A stretch of DNA of 34,324 bases from Spirulina sp. CS-785/01 (lineage in GTDB: Bacteria; Cyanobacteriota; Cyanobacteriia; Cyanobacteriales; Spirulinaceae): positions 1 through 34,324 of the forward strand of contig NZ_JAQMSD010000242.1 of assembly GCF_028330525.1 (NCBI RefSeq), written 5' to 3'. Position numbers and translations under genes: made by a program. Of the stretch, positions 1,071-17,116 are shown piece by piece (the stretch's first letter is position 1; each line of letters starts with the position of its first letter). The notes beneath the pieces are model-generated. The model was not told the origin of the DNA and made no database searches. It was given only the letters and a program-made list of their open reading frames with translations.

Positions 1071-3725
1071 GTGGATATTTTGTGGCTTCTCGTTTGCTCT
1101 GGCTTAGTTTTTTTGATGCAACCCGGTTTTATGTGCCTAGAGTCAGGGCTAACACGGTCAAAGAATAGCATCAATGTCGCCGTTAAAAACTTAGCAGATT
1201 TTGGTGTTTCTGTGGCCTTATTCTGGGCATTTGGCTATGCCCTGATGTTTGGGGCTTCACAACTAGGGATATGGGGGCAAACGGGATTTTTCCTCAACTT
1301 TGACTCAACTCCGAAACTGGCCGCCTTTTTTATCTTTCAGGTGATGTTCTGTTCCACGGCCACCACCATCGTTTCCGGTGCAGTGGCCGAACGACTCAAG
1401 TTTCAAGCCTATCTGATCATCACTGCCATTGCGTCGGGGTTGATCTATCCCCTCTACGGCCATTGGGCTTGGAATGGCGTAAACTTAGACAATATGACCG
1501 GGTGGCTTGCCCAATTGGGGTTTGTGGACTTTGCGGGTTCTACTGTGGTTCATAGTATCGGCGGTTGGATTGCTCTGGCCACCTTAACCCTCGTTGGGGC
1601 CCGACTGGGCCGTTACCCTAAAGGAGAACCTAGCCAAGAAATCCACGGGGCAAACCTGCCTTTCTCCGTCCTCGGTACAATGTTACTCTGGTTTGGCTGG
1701 TTAGGCTTCAATGGGGGCAGTACCTTCGCCATCAATGAGCAAGTCCCCCAAATTATCGCTAACACTATCTTAGCGGGAGTCGCCGGAATGCTCACCGCCG
1801 GAGTTATCGGTTGGCAACGTCGCCGTCTCCCGAAAGTCGAATTATTAATTAATGGGTCCCTGGCGGGGTTAGTGGGCATTACGGCCTCTTGTAACCTTGT
1901 TGAGACTCCCATTGCCGTCATTATTGGGAGCATTGGGGCTGCTATCATGATCCTCTGTGTTGATCTTTTAGAATACTGGCGTGTGGATGATGCGGTGGAT
2001 GCGGTGGCGGTTCATGGGGGGGCCGGGGCCTGGGGAACATTGGCCGTAGGACTCTTTGCCAACCCTGACACCTTGGGGACGGGGTTAAGTAAAGGCCAAC
2101 AAATTCTCGTCCAAGGGTTAGGAGTTGGGGTCGGTTTTCTCTGGGCCTTTGGTGCTACTTGGCTCATTCTGGGGTTACTGAACCGTTTTGTCACCCTGCG
2201 GGTTTCTCCCCAGGAAGAAGAACAAGGGTTAAATGTCTCGGAACACGGGGCAAAAACGGAAATCTATGACCTTGTACAGGTCATGGAATATCAGTCCATC
2301 AGCCAAGATTTGAGTGCGCGAGTCCCCGTCCATCCTTTCACCGAGGTGGGACAAATTGCGGCACGCTATAACCAAGTGATGGAAACCATGGAAGAAGCGG
2401 TGAGTCATAATAATGCTATTGTCCGCACTGCCAGTGATGCCATTATTACCTTTTCCACCTCCACCTTAAAGATTTTAACCGCCAATCCCAGTGCCGAGGC
2501 GATTTTTGGCTATACGCCCAACACCTTGAAACAAATGCCTATCACCAAGTTAATTGGTTGGTCTCCGACCAATACTATAGACCGAGTAAGTTTATTTAGC
2601 GAACTCCTCGATTCAGGGGCAACGGAGGTTACAGGGTATCGGGCAGACGGGTCAACGTTTCCGGTGGAAATGTGCATCACAAAAGCAGATTTGGGGTCTC
2701 GTTCGTTTTATACGGGGACTTTTCGGGACATTACGGAACGAAAACAGGCCGAAGAATCCCTCCGTCACAAAGCCCAAAATGAGAAACTGCAACGCACCCT
2801 AGAGGAGTTACGACGCACCCAAACCCAACTGATCCAAAGTGAAAAAATGTCTAGTTTGGGGCAAATGGTGGCCGGGGTTGCCCATGAAATTAATAATCCG
2901 GTGAATTTTATCTACGGGAATTTAATCTATGCGAAAAATTACACTAACGATTTACTGGATTTAATTGCCTTATATCAGGAGAAATTACCGAAAGCGGATG
3001 AGGTTATACAGGAGAAAATCGAGGAAATTGAGTTAGAGTTTCTCAAGGATGATTTACCTAAGTTACAGGATTCTCTCTTGGCGGGGTCAGAGCGTATTTT
3101 AGAGATTGTCCGGTCTTTACGCACTTTTTCCCGCTTAGATGAGGCAGAAGTGAAAAGTGTAGATATCCATGATGGGTTAGAGAGTACCTTACGGATTTTA
3201 CATAATCGCTTAAAAGAGTCGATTCGGGGGAGAAAGAAAGCTAGTTATGCCATTGAAGTGATTCGTCATTATGGGGATGTGCCTCCCATTGAATGTTATG
3301 CTGGACAATTGAATCAGGTGTTTATGAATTTGTTGGGGAATGCGGTGGATGCGTTAGAGGAATCTTACGATCGCGGCCATTTTGAACCCCCAGAAAACCC
3401 CACGATTCGCATTCAGACCAAAGTGAGAGATAAGAATTGGCTTGCCATTCACATTGCCGATAATGGTATGGGAATTAAACCGGAAGCGAAGCAAAAGTTA
3501 TTTGATCCCTTTTTTACGACAAAAGAAGTGGGGAAAGGCACAGGACTGGGATTATCTATTAGTTATCAAGTGGTGGTTGAACGACATAAAGGACGGATGA
3601 TCTGTGATTCTGAACCGGGGAAAGGGGCTGAGTTTATTGTGGAAATTCCCATCCATCAACGGCACATTGAATCCAATGGATATCATAAAGAAATTCAGCC
3701 ACAAATGGAGAATATGAAACCCTGA
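1071..3725 (+). CDS. Ammonium channel-PAS-histidine kinase fusion (Amt-type ammonium sensor)
   Basis: Residues 1-375 form a complete Amt/Rh-type channel. The conserved Asp is D153, the twin pore histidines are H161 (in GSTVVH) and H315 (in VAVHGGAG), and the likely gate aromatics are F93 and F213. Residues 400-440 look like a HAMP-like linker. A PAS domain spans about 445-558, ending in the usual TGTFRDITERKQ. After a coiled coil, a HisKA domain carries phospho-acceptor H605 in VAHEINNP. The ATPase domain has N757, the DNGMGI box at D797 and GKGTGLGL near 822-828. Because all the transport residues are kept, ammonium passage or binding may directly control the kinase, as shown for the Kuenenia Amt5 sensor kinase. 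No response regulator gene is adjacent, so the partner is unknown. The start is a GTG without a clear ribosome-binding site, chosen because the first Amt helix begins there. Confidence 0.93.
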   Translation: MDILWLLVCSGLVFLMQPGFMCLESGLTRSKNSINVAVKNLADFGVSVALFWAFGYALMFGASQLGIWGQTGFFLNFDSTPKLAAFFIFQVMFCSTATTIVSGAVAERLKFQAYLIITAIASGLIYPLYGHWAWNGVNLDNMTGWLAQLGFVDFAGSTVVHSIGGWIALATLTLVGARLGRYPKGEPSQEIHGANLPFSVLGTMLLWFGWLGFNGGSTFAINEQVPQIIANTILAGVAGMLTAGVIGWQRRRLPKVELLINGSLAGLVGITASCNLVETPIAVIIGSIGAAIMILCVDLLEYWRVDDAVDAVAVHGGAGAWGTLAVGLFANPDTLGTGLSKGQQILVQGLGVGVGFLWAFGATWLILGLLNRFVTLRVSPQEEEQGLNVSEHGAKTEIYDLVQVMEYQSISQDLSARVPVHPFTEVGQIAARYNQVMETMEEAVSHNNAIVRTASDAIITFSTSTLKILTANPSAEAIFGYTPNTLKQMPITKLIGWSPTNTIDRVSLFSELLDSGATEVTGYRADGSTFPVEMCITKADLGSRSFYTGTFRDITERKQAEESLRHKAQNEKLQRTLEELRRTQTQLIQSEKMSSLGQMVAGVAHEINNPVNFIYGNLIYAKNYTNDLLDLIALYQEKLPKADEVIQEKIEEIELEFLKDDLPKLQDSLLAGSERILEIVRSLRTFSRLDEAEVKSVDIHDGLESTLRILHNRLKESIRGRKKASYAIEVIRHYGDVPPIECYAGQLNQVFMNLLGNAVDALEESYDRGHFEPPENPTIRIQTKVRDKNWLAIHIADNGMGIKPEAKQKLFDPFFTTKEVGKGTGLGLSISYQVVVERHKGRMICDSEPGKGAEFIVEIPIHQRHIESNGYHKEIQPQMENMKP

Positions 3726-8807: not shown

Positions 8808-8940
8808 TTTCCCATATTCCTTGCGCCCCTCTCTTACTATTATCGTAAGAGAGTTGAGAGTTGAGAGTTGAACCACTTCCCTGTTTCCTCCCCCCCATCT
8901 CCCCCATCTCCCCAAAGACAGGTTATCTTAACTTGTCACC

Positions 8941-8961
8941 ATTCCCCATTCCCCATTCCCC
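8941..8961. repeat. Heptamer tandem repeat (ATTCCCC x3)
   Basis: Three exact ATTCCCC units are followed by a degenerate fourth (ATTCTC). Short tandemly repeated repetitive heptamers are a known feature of filamentous cyanobacterial intergenic DNA. Confidence 0.8.
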
Positions 8962-9130
8962 ATTCTCTAGACCAAAGTCTAATAACCCAAAATCCCCTTG
9001 ATGATTAAGCTAGAACACAATAGCTAGACCGAAAAAACAAAATTACTCACAAAAAAATCAAAATCACAAACACATCACTGACCCCCCTTCCGGGGGCCCG
9101 AAGATCGGACAGTCTCGTGTTTGCCCAAAT

Positions 9131-9157
9131 AGAAGGCAAAACCCACCCTTGCCTTCT
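9131..9157 (+). promoter_or_regulatory. Leader hairpin upstream of the CIS sheath gene
   Basis: AGAAGGCAA (9131-9139) pairs perfectly with TTGCCTTCT (9149-9157) around the nine-base loop AACCCACCC. It ends 41 bases before the sheath ATG. There is no T run after it, so it is not a typical terminator. An mRNA-stabilising or translational role for a highly expressed structural gene is possible but inferred. Confidence 0.55.
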
Positions 9158-9198
9158 TCACCCTTGCCCATTTTATACATAATGGAGGACAGCCACTC

Positions 9199-10947
9199 AT
9201 GGCATTGGATTATTTTGCTCCTGGGGTCTATGTCGAAGAAGTTGACCGAGGGAGTCGCCCCATAGAAGGGGTAAGTCTTAGCGTTGCGGGCTTTATCGGC
9301 TTCACCGAAGACGTAAGAGGGGATGCCGAACTGTTCAAACCCATCATGATCACCAACTTTGAACAGTACCTCGAATACTTCGGCAGACCCGGTTCAGACG
9401 GGTTCACCGAATATAAAAAAGTCGAAGACGACGGCACAGAAACCACCTACTACCCCTACCTCCCCTTCGCCGTCCAAGGATGGTTTATTAACGGAGGAGG
9501 ACGGTGCTGGGTGACAAGTATCGGCACCAAACTCCCTGGGTCTCCCGCCCCTCCGGAAGAAGAAGTAGCAACAAAATTCCTCACCCCCGGAGGCAAACCC
9601 GCCTTAGCCTTTAACCTGAAACTCCCTGAAGCCGCAGACGATGGCGTTCCCGCCCTCCCTGCCGGGTTAAACGATAACCGCCTCACCGTGGTTATTGCCG
9701 AAAGTACCCCCAAACCCCCCGAAAGTGAAGATGAAGACCCCCCCATCGACGATGGACAGTTCTTCAAACTCTCTGTCGTCTTAGGGGAAAGCGTCCTCGA
9801 AGAATACGACCATCTCACCATGAAGTCCGACGTAGAAACCGCCGTCGCAGACTACGTGGTGACGGCCCTAGAGGACTCGGAATATGTCACCCTCAACGAC
9901 ATTTCCATCACCGGCCAGTCTCCCCTCTCCCGTCGTCCCGCCAACGGGGTTTATGAAATTGCCCCACCTCCCTACATTTCCCCCGTCAGCAACGCCACAC
10001 GGGACATCGCTGGGAGTCGCAACGACAAGAAAGGGATGCAAGGGTTATTTGAGGTAGATGAAGTGGCCATGGTGGCTTTCCCTGACCTCATGTTGCTCTA
10101 TCAAACGGGTATTCTCGACCTCGACCAAGTTCACGGGGTTGTAGAAATGATGATCAGTATGTGCGAAAACTCCTTCCCCGGGCCGCCTTACCGCATGGCC
10201 GTCATCGACCCACCCCCCGTTAAACCCGGTAAGAGTAATGACCCGGTTTCCCCAGAACAGCAAAAACCCCAAGACGTGGATGCTTGGTTAACGGCCTTTA
10301 ACCGTCGCTCTATGTTCGGTGCGCTGTACTATCCTTGGATTAAAGTGGCAAACCCTGCTAATGCAGGCCGCCCCATTTTTGTTCCCCCTTGTGGTCACAT
10401 GATGGGAGTATGGTGTCGCGTGGATGAGTCTCGCGGTATCTTCAAGGCCCCTGCTAACGAAACCCCTCGCGGTGTGTTAGGACTGGCCTATGAAACCAAT
10501 ATGCGGGAACAAGAACTCCTTAACCCCAAAGGCATTAACTGTGTCCGCAACTTTGCCAACTATAACCGAGGCTACCTCATTTGGGGCGCACGGACGCTGG
10601 TTGACCCCACCAATATTCAATGGCGGTATATCAGTGTACGTCGTTTAATGAGCTACGTGGAAAAATCCATTGAAATTGGCACACAATGGGTGGTCTTTGA
10701 ACCCAATGACCAAGACTTATGGGCCCGAGTCACTCGGACGGTCACTAACTTCTTAGAAGGTCTCTGGCGTGCAGGTGCGCTGCAAGGCGGGTCTCCGGCT
10801 GAGTCTTTCTATGTCAAATGTGACGGAGAGTTAAATACCAACGAAACCATGATGATGGGTCGCCTTTACATTGATGTGGGAGTCTGTCCGGTACGTCCGG
10901 CTGAGTTTGTGATCTTCCGCATTAGCCAATGGGCCCCCGGTAGCTAA
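9199..10947 (+). CDS. Contractile injection system tail sheath protein
   Basis: This is the contracting outer sheath that drives the inner tube forward. The N-terminus (DYFAPGVYVEEVDRG, then a VAGFIG strand) is the conserved start of phage and CIS sheath proteins. The C-terminus (FYVKCDGELNTNE, then GVCPVRPAEFVIFRISQW) is the conserved sheath core that attaches to the next subunit. At 582 residues it is longer than minimal sheaths. The middle (about 110-310) looks like a surface insertion, including an acidic Pro-rich stretch near residues 172-185. A GGAGG ribosome-binding site lies ten bases ahead of the ATG. It is the only sheath gene in the window, whereas PVC/Afp-type loci usually have several. 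It is the first gene of the CIS run. Confidence 0.95.
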   Translation: MALDYFAPGVYVEEVDRGSRPIEGVSLSVAGFIGFTEDVRGDAELFKPIMITNFEQYLEYFGRPGSDGFTEYKKVEDDGTETTYYPYLPFAVQGWFINGGGRCWVTSIGTKLPGSPAPPEEEVATKFLTPGGKPALAFNLKLPEAADDGVPALPAGLNDNRLTVVIAESTPKPPESEDEDPPIDDGQFFKLSVVLGESVLEEYDHLTMKSDVETAVADYVVTALEDSEYVTLNDISITGQSPLSRRPANGVYEIAPPPYISPVSNATRDIAGSRNDKKGMQGLFEVDEVAMVAFPDLMLLYQTGILDLDQVHGVVEMMISMCENSFPGPPYRMAVIDPPPVKPGKSNDPVSPEQQKPQDVDAWLTAFNRRSMFGALYYPWIKVANPANAGRPIFVPPCGHMMGVWCRVDESRGIFKAPANETPRGVLGLAYETNMREQELLNPKGINCVRNFANYNRGYLIWGARTLVDPTNIQWRYISVRRLMSYVEKSIEIGTQWVVFEPNDQDLWARVTRTVTNFLEGLWRAGALQGGSPAESFYVKCDGELNTNETMMMGRLYIDVGVCPVRPAEFVIFRISQWAPGS

Positions 10948-11050: not shown

Positions 11051-11524
11051 ATGGCAGAACTTAATCCTATCCCAACTAATCGGTTTTACATCGAATTCGA
11101 TGGCCTGACGGAAAAAATGGTGGCCAGTGTCGGTGAAATGTCCTTTGAAGGGAAAACCGGCGGCCACGAAAAACCCATTGCCACTACCAAAGATGGGAAA
11201 ACTCTCTGGCAAAGTACCTCGACGGGGTTTGCTGATAACCCGGACTTTTCCCTAGAAGTCTATCTCGTTGAAGGTGATATGGACTGGTACAACTGGTTTA
11301 AAGCCTGTACCCCGAAAAGTGAGGGAGGCGATGGAAAATGGAGCGAAAATCGGAAAAGCGGTAAATTAACGGCTTATAACAGTGGGGATGAAGTGGTTCT
11401 TGAATGGACAATTACCAATGCTTGGCCAAAAAGTTATTCTCTCTCTGATTTAGCTTCAGATGGGAGTGAGTTGGCGAAAGAAACCTATGAATTGGTTTGT
11501 GAAGATATTAAACGGACGCAGTAA
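11051..11524 (+). CDS. CIS inner tube protein 1 (T4 gp19/Hcp-like)
   Basis: The protein is a 157-residue member of the phage tail tube (gp19) family, which stacks as hexameric rings inside the sheath. The N-terminal strand (PTNRFYIEFDGL), the central VYLVEGDMDWYNWFKAC segment and the C-terminal WTITNAWPKSYSLSDLA segment are the usual landmarks: ring strands, the helix after a WYNW-type motif, and the final strands. It is the first of three paralogues in the locus. It follows the sheath after a 103-base gap with a hairpin. Which paralogue forms the main tube and which form the initiating rings cannot be settled by eye. Confidence 0.88.
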   Translation: MAELNPIPTNRFYIEFDGLTEKMVASVGEMSFEGKTGGHEKPIATTKDGKTLWQSTSTGFADNPDFSLEVYLVEGDMDWYNWFKACTPKSEGGDGKWSENRKSGKLTAYNSGDEVVLEWTITNAWPKSYSLSDLASDGSELAKETYELVCEDIKRTQ

Positions 11525-11575: not shown

Positions 11576-12049
11576 ATGGCAGCCGGAGAAATTTTAGCAA
11601 CTTCTAAGTTTTATGTAGAAATTGATGGTTATCCCGATTTAATTATTAAGAGTGTCAGTGGGGTTAGTGCTACCCTAGAGGTTGCGGGGGCTGATATGTC
11701 TTATGGGGTAACAAAAGGCGGTAAAAGTACGGTACAAGCGACTGTAACTGGGGTGAGTAATGCCAATATTACGATTACCTTTGTGGGAACTTCCGATGAT
11801 AAATCTATGTATGATTGGTATTATGCGTCTCACTCGACGGAGTATGTTGGGGGAGGTAGTGAAAGCGGTGGTGAACGCAAGTCTGCTAGTATTGTTCTCT
11901 ACAACCAAGCGGGAGAAGAAGCCGCACGCTGGAATTTAACGGGAGTCTTTCCGGTGAGTTATAAAGGCTCTCAGTTATCGGCGGAAGATGCAGCTTTGTA
12001 TGAAGAAACTTTAGATTTTGCTTACGAAAACTTAGCCCGTGTAAGCTAA
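11576..12049 (+). CDS. CIS inner tube protein 2 (T4 gp19/Hcp-like)
   Basis: The second tube paralogue is also 157 residues. It shows the same layout as its neighbour: an N-terminal SKFYVEIDGY strand, a central MYDWYYASHS segment and a C-terminal RWNLTGVFPVSYKGSQLSA segment. A strong ribosome-binding site (AAGGAG) lies 8 bases before the ATG. It follows the first tube gene by 51 bases and is followed by a terminator-like hairpin, so sheath plus these two tube genes could form the high-output part of the transcript. The Ser/Gly-rich loop near residues 92-103 differs from the other two paralogues and may line the lumen or a ring contact. Confidence 0.88.
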   Translation: MAAGEILATSKFYVEIDGYPDLIIKSVSGVSATLEVAGADMSYGVTKGGKSTVQATVTGVSNANITITFVGTSDDKSMYDWYYASHSTEYVGGGSESGGERKSASIVLYNQAGEEAARWNLTGVFPVSYKGSQLSAEDAALYEETLDFAYENLARVS

Positions 12050-12157: not shown

Positions 12158-12649
12158 ATGGCGAAATTACCCGAAGTTCTAATTAATAGTAAGTTTTATT
12201 TAGAGTTATCGTTAGATGGTTCTCAAGAAATTGATGCGTTTTTCATGGAATGTCAAGGGTTTAAACGCAGTCATGAGTTAATTGAAATTGCGGAAGTTAC
12301 TTCCCAGAAGTGGGGAAAAAAGGGGAATAGTCGGGGACGAGTGGTGCGGACGAAGATGCCAGGAAATACGAAAAGTGAGAATATTACGTTAAAACGGGGG
12401 TTAACTAATTCTATGTCTTTATGGACATGGTTTAAGATGGTGGAGGATGGAAAGTGGGGTGAAAAGTTCCGGGATGGTGATATTACGATTTATGATCAAG
12501 CGTCTAGAGAACAAGCGAGGTTTCGCTTTAAAGGGGCTTGGCCGATTAGTTATACAATTAGTGATTTAAGTGCTAATAATGCCGATTTTGAGCTTGAGGA
12601 GTTAGAGTTGGCGGTTGATGAGTTTAACCGAGTGAAGAAACAGACATAG
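12158..12649 (+). CDS. CIS inner tube or tube-initiator protein 3 (T4 gp19-like)
   Basis: The third gp19-family paralogue has 163 residues. It starts with INSKFYLELSLDGS and contains the segment SENITLKRGLTNSMSLWTWF that is characteristic of phage tail tube proteins, followed by a FKGAWPISYTISDLSA C-terminal strand pair. It is the closest of the three to ordinary phage tube proteins and is more basic in the segment around residues 45-75. In other CIS, minor gp19-like proteins join the baseplate hub to the tube. Its place after a terminator-like hairpin fits such a low-copy role, though this is an inference. Ribosome-binding site AAGGGGAG lies at 12145-12152. Confidence 0.88.
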   Translation: MAKLPEVLINSKFYLELSLDGSQEIDAFFMECQGFKRSHELIEIAEVTSQKWGKKGNSRGRVVRTKMPGNTKSENITLKRGLTNSMSLWTWFKMVEDGKWGEKFRDGDITIYDQASREQARFRFKGAWPISYTISDLSANNADFELEELELAVDEFNRVKKQT

Positions 12650-12768: not shown

Positions 12769-13107
12769 ATGATTCAAACCGAGTTTGAATTTACGTTACC
12801 AAAAGGATATTTAGATGCAGAGGGGAATGTGCATCGGACGGGGATGATGCGCTTGGCGAGGGCGATGGATGAAATTGTGCCGATGCGGGACCCTAGAGTG
12901 AAGGCGAATCCGGCTTATGCGACGGTGATTATTTTGTCACGGGTGATTGTTCGCTTGGGGGCGGTTGAGGATGTTTCGCCTTCGGTGATTGAGGAATTAT
13001 TTGCGTCGGATTTGAATTATTTACAAAATTTTTATCGTAAGATTAATGATTTGGAGGAGGAGGAAACGGAAAGTCCGAGTCAGTCTGCGGGGGGTGAGGA
13101 GTCGTGA
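12769..13107 (+). CDS. CIS-associated small protein, possible tail assembly chaperone 1
   Basis: This 112-residue soluble protein opens with EFTLPKGYLDAEGNVHRTG and goes on to MRLARAMDEI, then a helix with SRVIVRLG and the ending DLNYLQNFYRKIND. The same layout is repeated in the next gene, so the two are tandem duplicates. The pattern of strand, conserved MRLA and late helix recalls small tail-assembly proteins of Mu-like phages, but this assignment is tentative. Residues after about 98 are an acidic and Ser-rich tail. The start has no visible ribosome-binding site and lies 13 bases beyond the outer edge of repeat copy B, so the insertion may have changed its translation. It overlaps the next gene by four bases. 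Confidence 0.72.
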   Translation: MIQTEFEFTLPKGYLDAEGNVHRTGMMRLARAMDEIVPMRDPRVKANPAYATVIILSRVIVRLGAVEDVSPSVIEELFASDLNYLQNFYRKINDLEEEETESPSQSAGGEES

Positions 13108-13418
13108 GTGATCAGCAGTTTGCGTTTACGTTACCCAAGGGGTTAGTGATGGAGACGGGGGAGGTGGTCCGAGAGGGGGTGATGCGGTTGGCTACGGGGG
13201 AGGATGAGTTGTTTGTCCAGAGACATCCTCGTGTGTTGTCGAATCCGTCTTATGGGGTGTTGGTGATGTTGTCGCGGACGATTGTTCGCTTTGGAGAGGG
13301 GCCGGGAGTGTCTGCGGAGATGTTGGAGGGGTTGTTTGTGGTGGACTCGGCCTATTTGCAGGATTTTTTTAATGAAATTAATCGCATGGGGGGAGAGTTG
13401 TCTATATCGGGGGAATGA
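13104..13418 (+). CDS. CIS-associated small protein, possible tail assembly chaperone 2
   Basis: This is a 104-residue paralogue of the preceding protein: FAFTLPKGLVMETGEVVREG, then MRLATGEDE, SRTIVRFG, and SAYLQDFFNEINRM. It starts with GTG inside a GTGA overlap with the upstream stop and has GAGGAG just ahead, so translation is probably coupled. Its own stop overlaps the next start as ATGA. A -1 frameshift fusing the two, as in lambda G/GT chaperones, is not supported because a TGA at 13095-13097 blocks this frame just before the overlap. DNA here is unusually G-rich on the coding strand. A structural or chaperone role in CIS assembly is inferred from position. Confidence 0.7.
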   Translation: MSDQQFAFTLPKGLVMETGEVVREGVMRLATGEDELFVQRHPRVLSNPSYGVLVMLSRTIVRFGEGPGVSAEMLEGLFVVDSAYLQDFFNEINRMGGELSISGE

Positions 13419-13558
13419 CGGGCTACCCCTTGGAGGAGTTATACCAAGAGGTAGCCTATATTGCGTTCTATTTTCACTGGGCCCGGTCGGATATTTTGTC
13501 TCTTGACCATGAGGAACGGTTACGCTGGGTGGAGGAGATTAATCAGTTGGTGGATTGA
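13415..13558 (+). CDS. DUF6760-like 47-aa CIS-associated protein
   Basis: A short gene starts at the ATG of an ATGA overlap with the preceding stop. It translates to 47 residues beginning MTGYPLEELYQEVAYIAFYF, then HWARSDILSLDHEERLRWVEEINQL. This matches my recollection of the small DUF6760 proteins next to tail tube and chaperone genes in bacterial and cyanobacterial CIS loci: a YPLEELYEEVAFIAYHFHW-like N-terminus followed by a conserved DHxERxxWxxEI motif. T4-like phages carry comparable small proteins beside tail chaperones. The function is not known to me. Both the coupled start and the conserved motif make it a real gene despite its size. Confidence 0.82.
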   Translation: MTGYPLEELYQEVAYIAFYFHWARSDILSLDHEERLRWVEEINQLVD

Positions 13559-13570
13559 GGGGAGGGACTT

Positions 13571-13608
13571 GAGAAACTGGGTTGCTGTTTGGAAAAATCT
13601 GGTTTCTC
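13571..13608 (+). repeat. Degenerate GAAAC-hairpin between DUF6760-like and kinase genes
   Basis: GAGAAAC (13571-13577) pairs with GTTTCTC (13602-13608), with partial pairing further inside, and is followed by AAAATTTTTGTAAC. It resembles the ends of the 72-bp element but lacks the middle. The T5 tract behind it could make it a weak terminator separating the CIS structural genes from the kinase gene. Confidence 0.5.
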
Positions 13609-13716
13609 AAAATTTTTGTAACAAAATTGTTGAACTCTTTCCGGATGATTCGGGGTTGGGTTTTAAATAGGGAATAAGTGTTTTAATTTTGCTGGTTCTG
13701 TGGGCAAATTGCATTT

Positions 13717-14871
13717 ATGTTCCCGTTATCGTTAGCCTATCCTGGGTCTGTGTCTGCTGCGTCTATGTTTGCCCCTGTTCCCGATTTAACGCAGATTTGC
13801 CGTCGTCAAGTTGAACAAGTGGGGAAACAATACACCCCTTTGGCCACTTGGATTGTGTATCGTAATGGGTTAGGAGAGGAACGGCATTTATCTCGCTATT
13901 CTACTCAGGGAGAGTTAAATGCTGAGATTCTTAGTTATTTGGAGTCGGAGGAGTGGTTAACGGAGACGTTACGGCCTAGTTTACAGTTGATTCCCATTCC
14001 CTTTGCGGATTGTTCGACTTTTGTCTATGTGTATGGGTTAACGGCCCAGTCGGAAGGGAATGAGTATTGGTTACTCTGGACTTCTCGGTGTCTTTCGGAA
14101 GGGGAACAAGCGGCATTTAGCCAGCAAGGGGCCTTGTTACAGGATTATATGGTGGCAGTGAGCGCGATCGCGCGTCAACAGCAAGAAATCCAACACCTCG
14201 AACAACTGGTACAACGAGGAAAACACCAACTCCGTGATCCCTTAGCCCTAATTGGATTATATGCCGAAAACCTGTCATTAGGACTCCCAGAAGGGTCATT
14301 CCGAGAACAAGCGTTAACCATCCGAGAAACGGTGAATGATTTAACCCTCAGTTTGCGCAAACTCCTCGATTGTACCCCAGAACGTCGCCTCCATCTGGCC
14401 CCCTACGACTTACGGAAAATGTTTCAAGAGTTAATCCGGGTGTTTCAACCTTGGTTAAGGGAGAAAAATATAACTTTAGTTTATCCCCAAAAAAGTTTAA
14501 TTGTTGCGGTCGATCGCTGGCAAATCAAACAAGTGTTAGAAAATCTATTAAGTAACGCTATTGATTTTAGTCCCAAGGACAGTGTAATTGAGGTACAGTG
14601 GCAAGGAAACGGTCAAGAAGCCTCCATGACCATCCGAGATCAAGGGCAAGGACTCTCCAGCGAAGACCTAGAAAAGGTTTTCACCCCCTTTTATTCTCGC
14701 CGATCGGGGGGAACTGGTCTAGGACTTGCGATCGCAAAAGATATTCTAGACCAACATCAAGGCAATATTATCGCCAAAAACCACCCCAACGGCGGCGCAA
14801 TTTTTGAAATCACCCTCCCCCGTCAAGGAACAGAAGAAATTATCGGTATTGTCGGGGAATTTTATTTATAA
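13717..14871 (+). CDS. Soluble histidine kinase embedded in the CIS locus
   Basis: The 384-residue protein has no signal peptide or membrane helix. The N-terminal 150 residues form an alpha/beta sensor-like domain (CRRQVEQVGKQYTPLATWIVY, later WLLWTSRCLS) in the position of a GAF-type domain but not clearly assignable. The HisKA part has H170 in KHQLRDPLALI, slightly unlike the usual HELRxPL. The ATPase part has N280 in NLLSNAIDFSP, D308 in DQGQGL and GGTGLGLAI at 331-339. The next gene is a NarL-type regulator, so the two form a likely pair. An alternative start is M17 (13765); neither has a clear ribosome-binding site. Base composition changes from G/T-rich to C/A-rich at the HIP1 site 14164-14171 in mid-gene. 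Confidence 0.9.
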   Translation: MFPLSLAYPGSVSAASMFAPVPDLTQICRRQVEQVGKQYTPLATWIVYRNGLGEERHLSRYSTQGELNAEILSYLESEEWLTETLRPSLQLIPIPFADCSTFVYVYGLTAQSEGNEYWLLWTSRCLSEGEQAAFSQQGALLQDYMVAVSAIARQQQEIQHLEQLVQRGKHQLRDPLALIGLYAENLSLGLPEGSFREQALTIRETVNDLTLSLRKLLDCTPERRLHLAPYDLRKMFQELIRVFQPWLREKNITLVYPQKSLIVAVDRWQIKQVLENLLSNAIDFSPKDSVIEVQWQGNGQEASMTIRDQGQGLSSEDLEKVFTPFYSRRSGGTGLGLAIAKDILDQHQGNIIAKNHPNGGAIFEITLPRQGTEEIIGIVGEFYL

Positions 14872-14899
14872 GTTTGTTGTTTGTTCTGGGTTGTTTGTT

Positions 14900-14971
14900 G
14901 GAGAAACCGGGTTTCTATCTAAAGTTATCGTGTTTCGCCTAAATTTCACACAGAAACCCGGTTTCTTAGCT
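14900..14971 (-). repeat. Interspersed inverted-repeat element, copy C (inverted relative to B)
   Basis: This 72-bp copy reads GGAGAAACCGGGTTTCTATC to CCCGGTTTCTTAGCT and is a reverse-complement match to copy B with three differences. Similarity to copy B's flank extends outward to about 14877 through a TTGTTCTGGGTTGTTTGTTG-like stretch. It fills most of the gap between the kinase stop (14871) and the regulator start (15021). Near-identity of the two copies suggests recent movement, gene conversion or selection on structure. Confidence 0.88.
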
Positions 14972-15020
14972 TCAATGACCAATTATCAACTATCCATTAT
15001 CAACTATCAACTATAAAAAA

Positions 15021-15686
15021 ATGCCCATCTCCACCCTATTAGTCGATGATGAACAAAAATTTCGGCAAGGACTACGCACCCTCTTAGAATTTTATAATCA
15101 AAACGGGTCACTAGAATTTGACATCGTAGGGGAAGCGGCCTCCGTTGATCAAGCCGTAACCTTAGCGCGACAACAGCATCCTAGACTCATCTTACTCGAC
15201 CTCGAACTCCCCCCCGATAACGGCATTAATGCCCTCTTACGCTTGCGAGAATTGCCCAACTTAGGGAAAGTCTTAGTCTTATCGGCCCATCATGATGATG
15301 ACTGGATATTTCGCGCCATGCAAGCCGGGGCTGTCGGCTATGTCTTTAAAGATAGTTTAGCCAATCAACTCCATGAAGCCATTGCCACCGTCCTCAATAA
15401 TCAAATTTATCTGGCCGCCGAAGTGGCCACCCATTTTTTCCGACATTTTCAATTTTTAGCGGGTCGATCCCTCCCCATTGCCCAATCTCTCAATTTAACC
15501 GAACGGGAACAAGAGGTTTTACACTGGTTGGTGCAAGGAGACTCCAACGAAGCGATCGCAGAACATCTTTATATTACCGTCGCCACCGTCAAAGCCCATT
15601 TAACCTCCATCTTTGAAAAACTCGGAGTCAATAGTCGCACCCAAGCGATCGTCAAAGCCTTAAAGTTAGGATTAGTCCGGGCCTAA
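15021..15686 (+). CDS. NarL/FixJ-type response regulator
   Basis: The 221-residue protein has an N-terminal receiver domain with acidic pair D9/D10, phospho-acceptor D60 (in LILLDLELPPDNG), switch S88 and K110 (YVFKDS). A LuxR-type helix-turn-helix follows at about 155-215 (LTEREQEVLHWLVQGDSNEAIAEHL, then VATVKAHLTSIFEKL). It should bind DNA as a dimer when phosphorylated, with the upstream kinase as the likely donor. Lying between that kinase and the DUF4255 cap gene, it is a good candidate to control the CIS genes, although nothing in the sequence proves this. The ATG follows an A-rich tract without a clear ribosome-binding site. Confidence 0.95.
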   Translation: MPISTLLVDDEQKFRQGLRTLLEFYNQNGSLEFDIVGEAASVDQAVTLARQQHPRLILLDLELPPDNGINALLRLRELPNLGKVLVLSAHHDDDWIFRAMQAGAVGYVFKDSLANQLHEAIATVLNNQIYLAAEVATHFFRHFQFLAGRSLPIAQSLNLTEREQEVLHWLVQGDSNEAIAEHLYITVATVKAHLTSIFEKLGVNSRTQAIVKALKLGLVRA

Positions 15687-15829: not shown

Positions 15830-17116
15830 ATGAGTAATCACCTTGCTATTGCCACTGTAACCGCCACCTTACAACGATTGTTACAGGTGGCGATCCAACG
15901 AGATGTTGAAGGGGCCCGAGTTACCACCTTACGGCCCGATGCGATCGGAACAGCCACCCCCCAAACCGGAGTCAATCTTTACCTCTACCAAGTCCCCTTT
16001 AACCATATTTGGGGCAATAGTGCAGAAATTCAACGACGTAACCGGAAAGGAGAAGCGGCAACAAAATCGCGGACTGCCCTCGATATGCACTACATGATCA
16101 CCTGTTATGGCAACGACGCAGAACTCGAACCCCAACGACTTCTCGGTAGTGTCATTCGCACCCTCTCCGATCACAGTACCCTCACCCATGCCATGATCGA
16201 GACTACCCTCGTCGATGCCAACCTCGATTATCTCGCCGACTCCACCCTCCGCGATCAATTTGAACAAATCAGTTTTTCCCCCCTCAACCTCTCCCTCGAA
16301 GACCTCTCCAAAGTCTGGTCCGTCTTCTTTCAAACCCCCTACAACCTCTCCACCGCCTATAAAGCAACCGTGGCCATGATCGAAGGAGAAGAAGCCGGGG
16401 AAAAATCCTTACCCCTCAGAGATCGTCCGTCCGGCCCAGTTGGCCCCTACTTCTCCCAACCCAATATCACCGAAGTCATCAACCAAAACGGTCGCCTTCA
16501 ACCCATTGAAAGCGAGAGTACCATCCTCATTCGCGGCAACAACCTAGCCGGATTTGAAGAAACCTTGATCCGAATTGGAGATTTAGAAATCAGTCCAGAC
16601 CAAGTAACCCCCACCGAAATCACCCTCTCCCTCGCTGCGATTCCCCCCCAAAACCTTTATGCCGGAGTCCAAACCCTACAAGTTATTCATCCCCAAGGCA
16701 CAACCAACAACAACGGCAATAGTCAACCCCTCCAACAAGTCGTAGAATCCAACATCGTCCCCTTTGTCCTGCGTCCCTCCATCGTCAACTGTGACCTGTT
16801 ATCCATCACCGGCCATCCCGAAGAAACCCGTCAGGGAGAAATCCAAATCAACAGCAACTTAACCATTCGTCCCAAACAGCGTGTCATCATCTCCCTCAAT
16901 GAATGGTCCACCCAAAACCCCCAAAACTACCTCTTTGAAGCCACACGACACCGACGAAACACCAAAACCCTTAGCTTTCCTTTTCAAGGTGTAAAAGCTG
17001 GAGATTATTTAATTCGGTTGCACGTTGATGGGGCTGAGAGTAAATTAGAAGTCGATACCAATCCAGAGAGTGACACCTTTAATTGGTATATTAGCCCTAA
17101 ACTCTTAATCGTTTAA
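15830..17116 (+). CDS. DUF4255 (Pvc16-type) CIS cap or sheath-terminator protein
   Basis: Residues 1-190 match the DUF4255/Pvc16 N-terminal domain: an N-terminal helix (ATVTATLQRLLQVAIQ), GVNLYLYQVPFNH, LDMHYMITCYGND, and EPQRLLGSVIRTLSDH. In PVC and Afp particles the family member caps the sheath and tube end. Residues about 205-300 look like an IPT/TIG immunoglobulin-like fold (ITEVINQNGRLQ, then STILIRGNNLAG and LEISPDQVTPTEITLSL). About 310-428 forms another beta-rich domain. Cyanobacterial CIS are reported to anchor in thylakoid membranes; these extra C-terminal domains could provide contacts, but no transmembrane helix is seen. The 143-base gap from the regulator holds two small palindromes (15727-15737, 15750-15759). 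Confidence 0.88.
   Translation: MSNHLAIATVTATLQRLLQVAIQRDVEGARVTTLRPDAIGTATPQTGVNLYLYQVPFNHIWGNSAEIQRRNRKGEAATKSRTALDMHYMITCYGNDAELEPQRLLGSVIRTLSDHSTLTHAMIETTLVDANLDYLADSTLRDQFEQISFSPLNLSLEDLSKVWSVFFQTPYNLSTAYKATVAMIEGEEAGEKSLPLRDRPSGPVGPYFSQPNITEVINQNGRLQPIESESTILIRGNNLAGFEETLIRIGDLEISPDQVTPTEITLSLAAIPPQNLYAGVQTLQVIHPQGTTNNNGNSQPLQQVVESNIVPFVLRPSIVNCDLLSITGHPEETRQGEIQINSNLTIRPKQRVIISLNEWSTQNPQNYLFEATRHRRNTKTLSFPFQGVKAGDYLIRLHVDGAESKLEVDTNPESDTFNWYISPKLLIV

Follow-up and report, generated by a model that had tools for sequence, protein, structure and literature searches.

The locus analysed here raises the question of whether a sensor kinase and a response regulator encoded among CIS genes control the expression of those genes and, if so, through which DNA site. 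The window, i.e., the whole stretch of DNA under investigation (34324 bases, corresponding to an entire contig), harbors the two ORFs where the earlier note had placed them (13717-14871, +, 384 aa, and 15021-15686, +, 221 aa); both are intact and lie between the CIS tail genes and a Pvc16-type cap gene, with all the neighbours on the same strand. Judging from the sequence, the pair probably represents a dedicated two-component activator switch for the CIS sheath operon. The features on which this reading is based are the following, all on the + strand:

8964..8987, +, putative regulator operator of 24 bp (motif obtained from 51 other loci; sole strict match in the genome)
8968-8981, +, dyad TAGAC-CAAA-GTCTA in the putative operator
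9006..9011, +, putative -10 element TAAGCT of the sheath promoter (fixed spacing from the operator)
9199..10947, +, CIS sheath (PF17482 and PF04984 above cut-off)
11051-11524, 11576-12049 and 12158-12649, +, three gp19-type tube genes (PF06841 above cut-off in each)
12769-13107 and 13104-13418, +, two small CIS-associated proteins (no significant Pfam match; kept beside the sheath operon in relatives)
13415-13558, +, DUF6760 protein of 47 aa (PF20546)
13717..14871, +, soluble HisKA-type sensor histidine kinase, phospho-acceptor H170 (boxes, HATPase_c)
13765..14166, +, N-terminal GAF-like sensor domain of the kinase, residues 17-150 (predicted fold)
15021..15686, +, NarL/FixJ-type response regulator with D60 and a GerE DNA-binding domain (Pfam, conserved residues)
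15830..17116, +, Pvc16_N cap gene (PF14065, 146 bits; located just after the pair in many relatives)

Baseplate_J has no match within the window, the matches of this genome being located on contigs C94 and C285. The latter hosts another CIS, represented by two sheath matches, one baseplate match and an AAA ATPase; a cap-like gene (29%) and AAA genes are found on C140, an AAA gene on C28, and a further baseplate match on C94. Elsewhere in the window, positions 1071-3725 encode an ammonium transporter fused to a PAS-histidine kinase.

The product of the first ORF had been described as a soluble kinase with H170 and complete ATPase boxes, and this description was confirmed. The HATPase_c domain scored 91 bits (Pfam cut-off 26.4); since the HisKA score (17.4 bits) is under the curated Pfam cut-off (26.9), the kinase is termed HisKA-like from its boxes and fold, HisKA being matched at E<=1 by 43/49 of the aligned kinase relatives. 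In these 49 sequences, the phospho-acceptor His and the N, G1, F and G2 boxes are conserved, with H170, N280, G310, G332, G334 and G336 invariant and N276, D308 and G312 nearly so. No transmembrane stretch was detected in the kinase, whose top 19-residue hydropathy mean is 1.21. Pfam lists no family for its N-terminal part, GAF being absent among the 5 families listed for the window kinase (E<=1) and among 25 of the 35 listed across the 49 members. This part is predicted to be GAF-like: when modelled alone, it yielded a confident alpha/beta domain (pLDDT 90.1, pTM 0.85), whose nearest solved folds are GAF domains, i.e., 3p01 of Nostoc sp. PCC 7120 (Foldseek E 6e-5) and the DosS GAF, and phytochrome GAFs lead the VIA-align results obtained with the same model (Z up to 11.6, rmsd 4.1, 122 residues aligned). 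A bilin or haem cofactor was considered and rejected, no cofactor residue being conserved in the alignment of 44 N-termini; in this alignment Y101 is the sole invariant residue (E62, W64, Y88 and L110 are nearly invariant), and therefore no cofactor is claimed. The sensor part is more variable than the catalytic one (mean top-residue frequency of 0.54 versus 0.71, 77 sequences), and the kinase is more variable than the regulator (29-51% identity to the window copy for the kinase in the 49-sequence set, versus 58-73% for the regulator in 80 named loci).

The second ORF does encode a NarL-type regulator with D60, as previously noted. Both Response_reg (PF00072, 79 bits) and GerE (PF00196, 72 bits) scored above cut-off, and D60 and K110 are invariant in 10 aligned regulator sequences. 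The closest solved relatives are VraR, NarL and DevR/DosR. The DNA-contact residues of DosR are Lys179, Lys182 and Asn183 (PMC4082495); K191 of the window regulator aligns with the base-contact Lys182 and is invariant in 10 relatives, whereas Lys179 and Asn183 align with alanines, so that two of the three base contacts are not kept and the regulator does not carry the full set of DosR/DevR contact residues. The GerE gene adjoins CIS structural genes, as expected for a regulator of an eCIS locus. According to the text of Geller et al. 2021 (PMC8213781), a GerE gene is found beside 25.8% of eCIS loci and a histidine kinase gene lies upstream in 9% of the GerE-bearing eCIS operons, and a two-component system for eCIS was suggested. 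The general kind of locus, in which a GerE gene, sometimes accompanied by a kinase gene, adjoins an eCIS, is therefore already published; its passages on these genes describe no operator, no promoter layout and no distribution among cyanobacteria, all of which are given here, and a full-text literature search (main texts of open-licence papers) found neither the operator nor the cyanobacterial pair in print.

The distribution of the pair in other cyanobacteria was analysed on the best 80 of 138 named regulator relatives, i.e., the less distant ones, and the pair turned out to be a conserved companion of CIS genes. In this set, the kinase is directly upstream of the regulator in 77/80 loci, and the surrounding DNA contains a sheath gene in 57/80 and any of sheath, cap and small protein in 61/80; among the loci flanked by 9 kb or more on each side, a CIS gene is present in 44/50. 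Thirteen of the 19 named loci without a CIS gene nearby have less than 9 kb on at least one side. A sheath was also sought elsewhere in ten genomes with none visible at the pair locus; nine of them possess a close one, whereas in L156 just a distant match was retrieved. Orthologues of the pair are thus not generally distant from CIS genes; such a distance would, according to the earlier note, have spoken against its proposal. The CIS loci L160, L071 and L078 contain regulator and cap with no kinase, and L072-L077 and L079 contain neither. Among 291 genomes taken from the phylum, the kinase (E<=1e-30) was retrieved in 9, the regulator (E<=1e-50) in 10, a close sheath (E<=1e-140) in 18 and a sheath at E<=1e-30 in 30. 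A close sheath is present in 10/10 regulator genomes versus 8/281 of the others (p=4e-14, Fisher, related genomes treated as independent); the kinship of the genomes inflates the p-values.

The arrangement of the locus varies. In 56/57 named sheath loci (among the best 80 of 138) sheath gene and pair occupy opposite strands. As a rule the two are divergent, with a short Pvc16_N protein encoded ahead of the sheath (recognized by a profile match in L084 and L064 and by similarity in the others). The co-directional order of the window is also found in one named relative, L098 (Cyanobacteria bacterium SBLK); in Spirulina sp. CCY15215, whose sheath is 87% identical, the pair plus cap and the sheath operon are located on separate contigs. 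In some loci the pair is followed by the cap gene and often by an AAA ATPase.

A motif search was run on 51 named loci, using from each the DNA that separates the short Pvc16 gene from the kinase; the window was left out. The 10-mer AAAGTCTAAT is present in 20/25 non-redundant intergenic regions, and 12-mers from the same site in up to 14/25; the maxima obtained with shuffled regions were 10 of 25 for 8-mers, 4 for 10-mers and 3 for 12-mers. Throughout the 51 regions the core AAAGTCTAAT is exact in 46, has one mismatch in 3 and is missing in 2; its main copy always points to the sheath operon. The distance from this copy to the short Pvc16 gene that follows is about 60 bases in many loci and 100-425 bases in the others. 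The enumeration of dyads alone was weak (best 5/25 regions, shuffles <=3), the signal having come from plain conserved 8- to 12-mers. The window, unused in motif discovery, carries GACCAAAGTCTAATAA at 8970-8985, upstream of the sheath gene. A matrix constructed on 21 distinct sites without the window scored this site 27.2, versus 15.2 for the next-best place in the 34 kb and 16.7 for the best score in 20 shuffled windows. The dyad of the window has the form TAGAC-N4-GTCTA, and the palindrome is longer in SBLK and Spirulina.

No operator core, with up to two mismatches, was found upstream of the kinase (13419-13719) or of the regulator, and therefore autoregulation via the operator is not claimed; read-through from the sheath operon into the pair, across the gap of 158 bp after the DUF6760 gene, is possible. 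The other CIS islands of this genome have no site in the stretches scanned (C94 4000-23900 of 25199; C28 1-10000 of 26953; C140 whole; C285 1-31900 of 54071), their best scores (9.1-12.4) corresponding to background.

The alignment of 30 non-redundant sites disclosed a TANNNT hexamer at exactly +36 from the operator GAC in 70% of them, versus <=20% in any column in 500 shuffles. In the window, counting from TAAGCT (9006-9011), the operator centre falls near -43 and the predicted start near 9018; a centre near -43 is the position of a class II activator. The aligned sites have no conserved hexamer at the -35 place, nor any column of at least 0.8 bits outside the operator, its flanks and the -10-like hexamer; the core columns are conserved through the selection of the rows, the independent columns being only -6, -4, -2, -1, 13, 15, 17, 36-38, 41 and 42. 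Generic sigma-70 and terminator scans remained at shuffle level (11 vs 10.6 and 13 vs 11.7, respectively) and were not used.

The strict pattern GACNNAAGTCTAATNA occurs once in the genome under study and once each in G008, G303, G301, G291 and G191, always at the CIS; one extra site each is present in G293 and G165, and none in G302 (SBLK), whose site differs by one base, or in any of the eight regulator-less genomes of the strict-pattern set. The pattern GACNAAAGTCTAATNA was found in 13/291 genomes, i.e., in 8/10 regulator genomes versus 5/281 others (p=5e-11), an association that is partly circular because the motif was discovered in regulator-linked loci. Each of the eight regulator genomes has one match at the CIS, and G213 has a second copy elsewhere. 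Because a reversed control pattern matches 21/291 genomes (3 of them among the 10 regulator genomes), the number of matches is not above chance; the signal is the coincidence of the matches with the regulator and the sheath promoter. The core GAC...AGTCTAA is located within 1.7 kb upstream of the sheath in 54/57 named sheath loci (56/57 if one mismatch is allowed). In nine genomes the close sheath is away from the pair, and the site stays at the sheath in 7/9, which argues for an action of the regulator in trans. One contig of Calothrix brevissima NIES-22 carries both the regulator (near 102 kb) and the sheath (near 2.63 Mb), and a Baseplate_J match is found 15 kb from the regulator. The site is absent at the second sheath of G024 (L080).

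Some operator-like sequences were also observed in other contexts. G239 (L075) has one about 125 bases upstream of its sheath, in a genome without a regulator orthologue; L103 (Laspinema palackyanum D2a) has two more cores, close together and away from the sheath; and G145, G181 and G266, belonging to one genus, have the pattern without a regulator or sheath match.

What is known of the site is its position and its conservation, and a site just upstream of the -10 element can also block the polymerase. The regulator might then bind it as a repressor, or as a switchable activator/repressor, and the signal would release CIS synthesis rather than drive it; however, a centre near -43, a kept -10 element and the lack of a conserved -35 hexamer are the usual layout of class II activation, which makes repression unlikely. 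It is a little less likely still that the site belongs to another of the many NarL-type regulators of cyanobacteria and that the pair controls something else, e.g., only its own operon with the cap and AAA genes. Such an assignment would account for the site of G239 and for G060 (same record as G299), G297 and G123, which possess regulator and close sheath with no site. Nevertheless, genomes having both site and regulator are far commoner than those having just one of them, the site is missing from 6/7 genomes that possess a close sheath but lack a regulator orthologue, and a one-mismatch site is kept in G253, whose regulator is diverged (45%; this genome was counted both as regulator-less without the site and as regulator-bearing with the site, p 0.008 and 0.009, respectively).

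The linkage to CIS genes might also derive from shared ancestry without any regulation, the pair being a mere hitchhiker, and the sample is indeed dominated by related, mostly Nostoc-like genomes. Yet pair and site persist in divergent, co-directional and split (over contigs) arrangements, and the distance between the site and the -10 element is kept while the surroundings differ; hitchhiking is thus very improbable.

The preferred reading, i.e., an activator switch for the CIS sheath operon, takes its elements from the sequence itself, in which the domains, the linkage, the conserved site and the fixed distance of the latter to a -10-like hexamer are all visible; from these we infer phosphotransfer, binding of the regulator to 8964-8987 and activation upon binding. 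A cytoplasmic signal would act on the GAF-like domain of the kinase, which would autophosphorylate at H170 and hand the phosphate to D60 of the regulator. Once phosphorylated, the regulator would dimerise on the dyad at 8968-8981 and behave as a class II activator at the sheath promoter (operator centred near -43, -10 element at 9006-9011, transcription starting near 9018), so that the sheath, tube and small genes would be turned on. Moreover, the pair may have been kept for one promoter, that of the CIS sheath operon, with about one operator per genome and a link outlasting the relocation of the sheath; in Nostoc-type loci this single-target system would have been extended by membrane-anchored pseudokinase-like/PstS-like and FHA proteins, which may add a second input. 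The chances of this broader scheme being right or wrong appear evenly balanced. The analysis provides a candidate CIS regulator together with its putative operator of 24 bp, predicts where transcription starts and lists named cyanobacteria that share the arrangement, and, if the regulator has essentially one target, a controlled laboratory induction of the machine would be allowed.

By analogy, the nearest mechanistic parallel is DosS/DosR-like signalling. The half-site spacing of the DosR box resembles GAC-N4-GTC. Unlike DosS, whose kinase is of the HisKA_3 type, the kinase described here is of the HisKA type, and it has one GAF-like domain without a conserved haem ligand. As in DosS/DosR (DevS/DevR) of mycobacteria (PMC4082495) and OsdK/OsdR of Streptomyces (PMC5069765), a kinase with a (here predicted) GAF domain is coupled to a NarL-type regulator. 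The putative operator is palindromic like that of OsdR, a 16-nt palindrome; for OsdR 43 sites were predicted (PMC5069765), in contrast to about one per genome here.

The earlier note had suggested that the kinase might sense a cytoplasmic or thylakoid stress signal and trigger CIS synthesis. The control of synthesis is supported by linkage, by phyletic co-occurrence and by a putative operator falling inside the interval 8808-9198, to which the regulator had been proposed to bind; the thylakoid part was not borne out. The window sheath matches the Streptomyces CIS sheath over its full length (residues 4-581, E 8e-101), but its match to All3325, the thylakoid-anchored sheath of Anabaena, is confined to the C-terminal portion (residues 390-576, E 6e-49). 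Furthermore, L102, a MAG labelled Gloeobacterales, an order without thylakoids, has the pair, the sheath operon and the site. The features of the thylakoid-anchored CIS are a transmembrane domain in Cis13, an extension of Cis12 and the Cis19 crown (PMC8894136). The system of the window shares with that of Anabaena (Weiss et al. 2022, PMC8894136) its being a cyanobacterial CIS with sheath and tube, and the words kinase and regulator are absent from the main text of that paper. The cytoplasmic CIS of Streptomyces coelicolor (PMC10066040) provides the closest solved sheath (8bky/8bl4), to which the full-length match refers; in the main text of the corresponding paper neither "regulator" nor "two-component" is used.

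In the Nostoc-type loci, the genes after the pair encode a protein of about 720 residues and then an FHA protein. The former combines a hydrophobic segment and a PBP_like_2 domain with a degenerate kinase-like part, which has HGN for the expected HRD and scores under the Pkinase cut-off, and the two proteins are possibly a second signalling layer for the CIS. This arrangement is found, among others, in L107 (10784-13580), L139 (10656-13455) and L136 (10824-13659), the FHA protein weakly matching the type VI FHA family TIGR03354. A relative of the pseudokinase-like protein (34-36% identity) is located near the sheath operon in pair-less CIS loci, divergent from it in L073 (9111-11054) and L074 (6441-8480) and on the same strand in L077 (3581-5653) and L080 (1637-3592). 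Lastly, G123 (L062 11070-11727) also carries kinase and tube genes in a second island, where the frame of the regulator is interrupted near residue 62; this island looks like a decaying copy.
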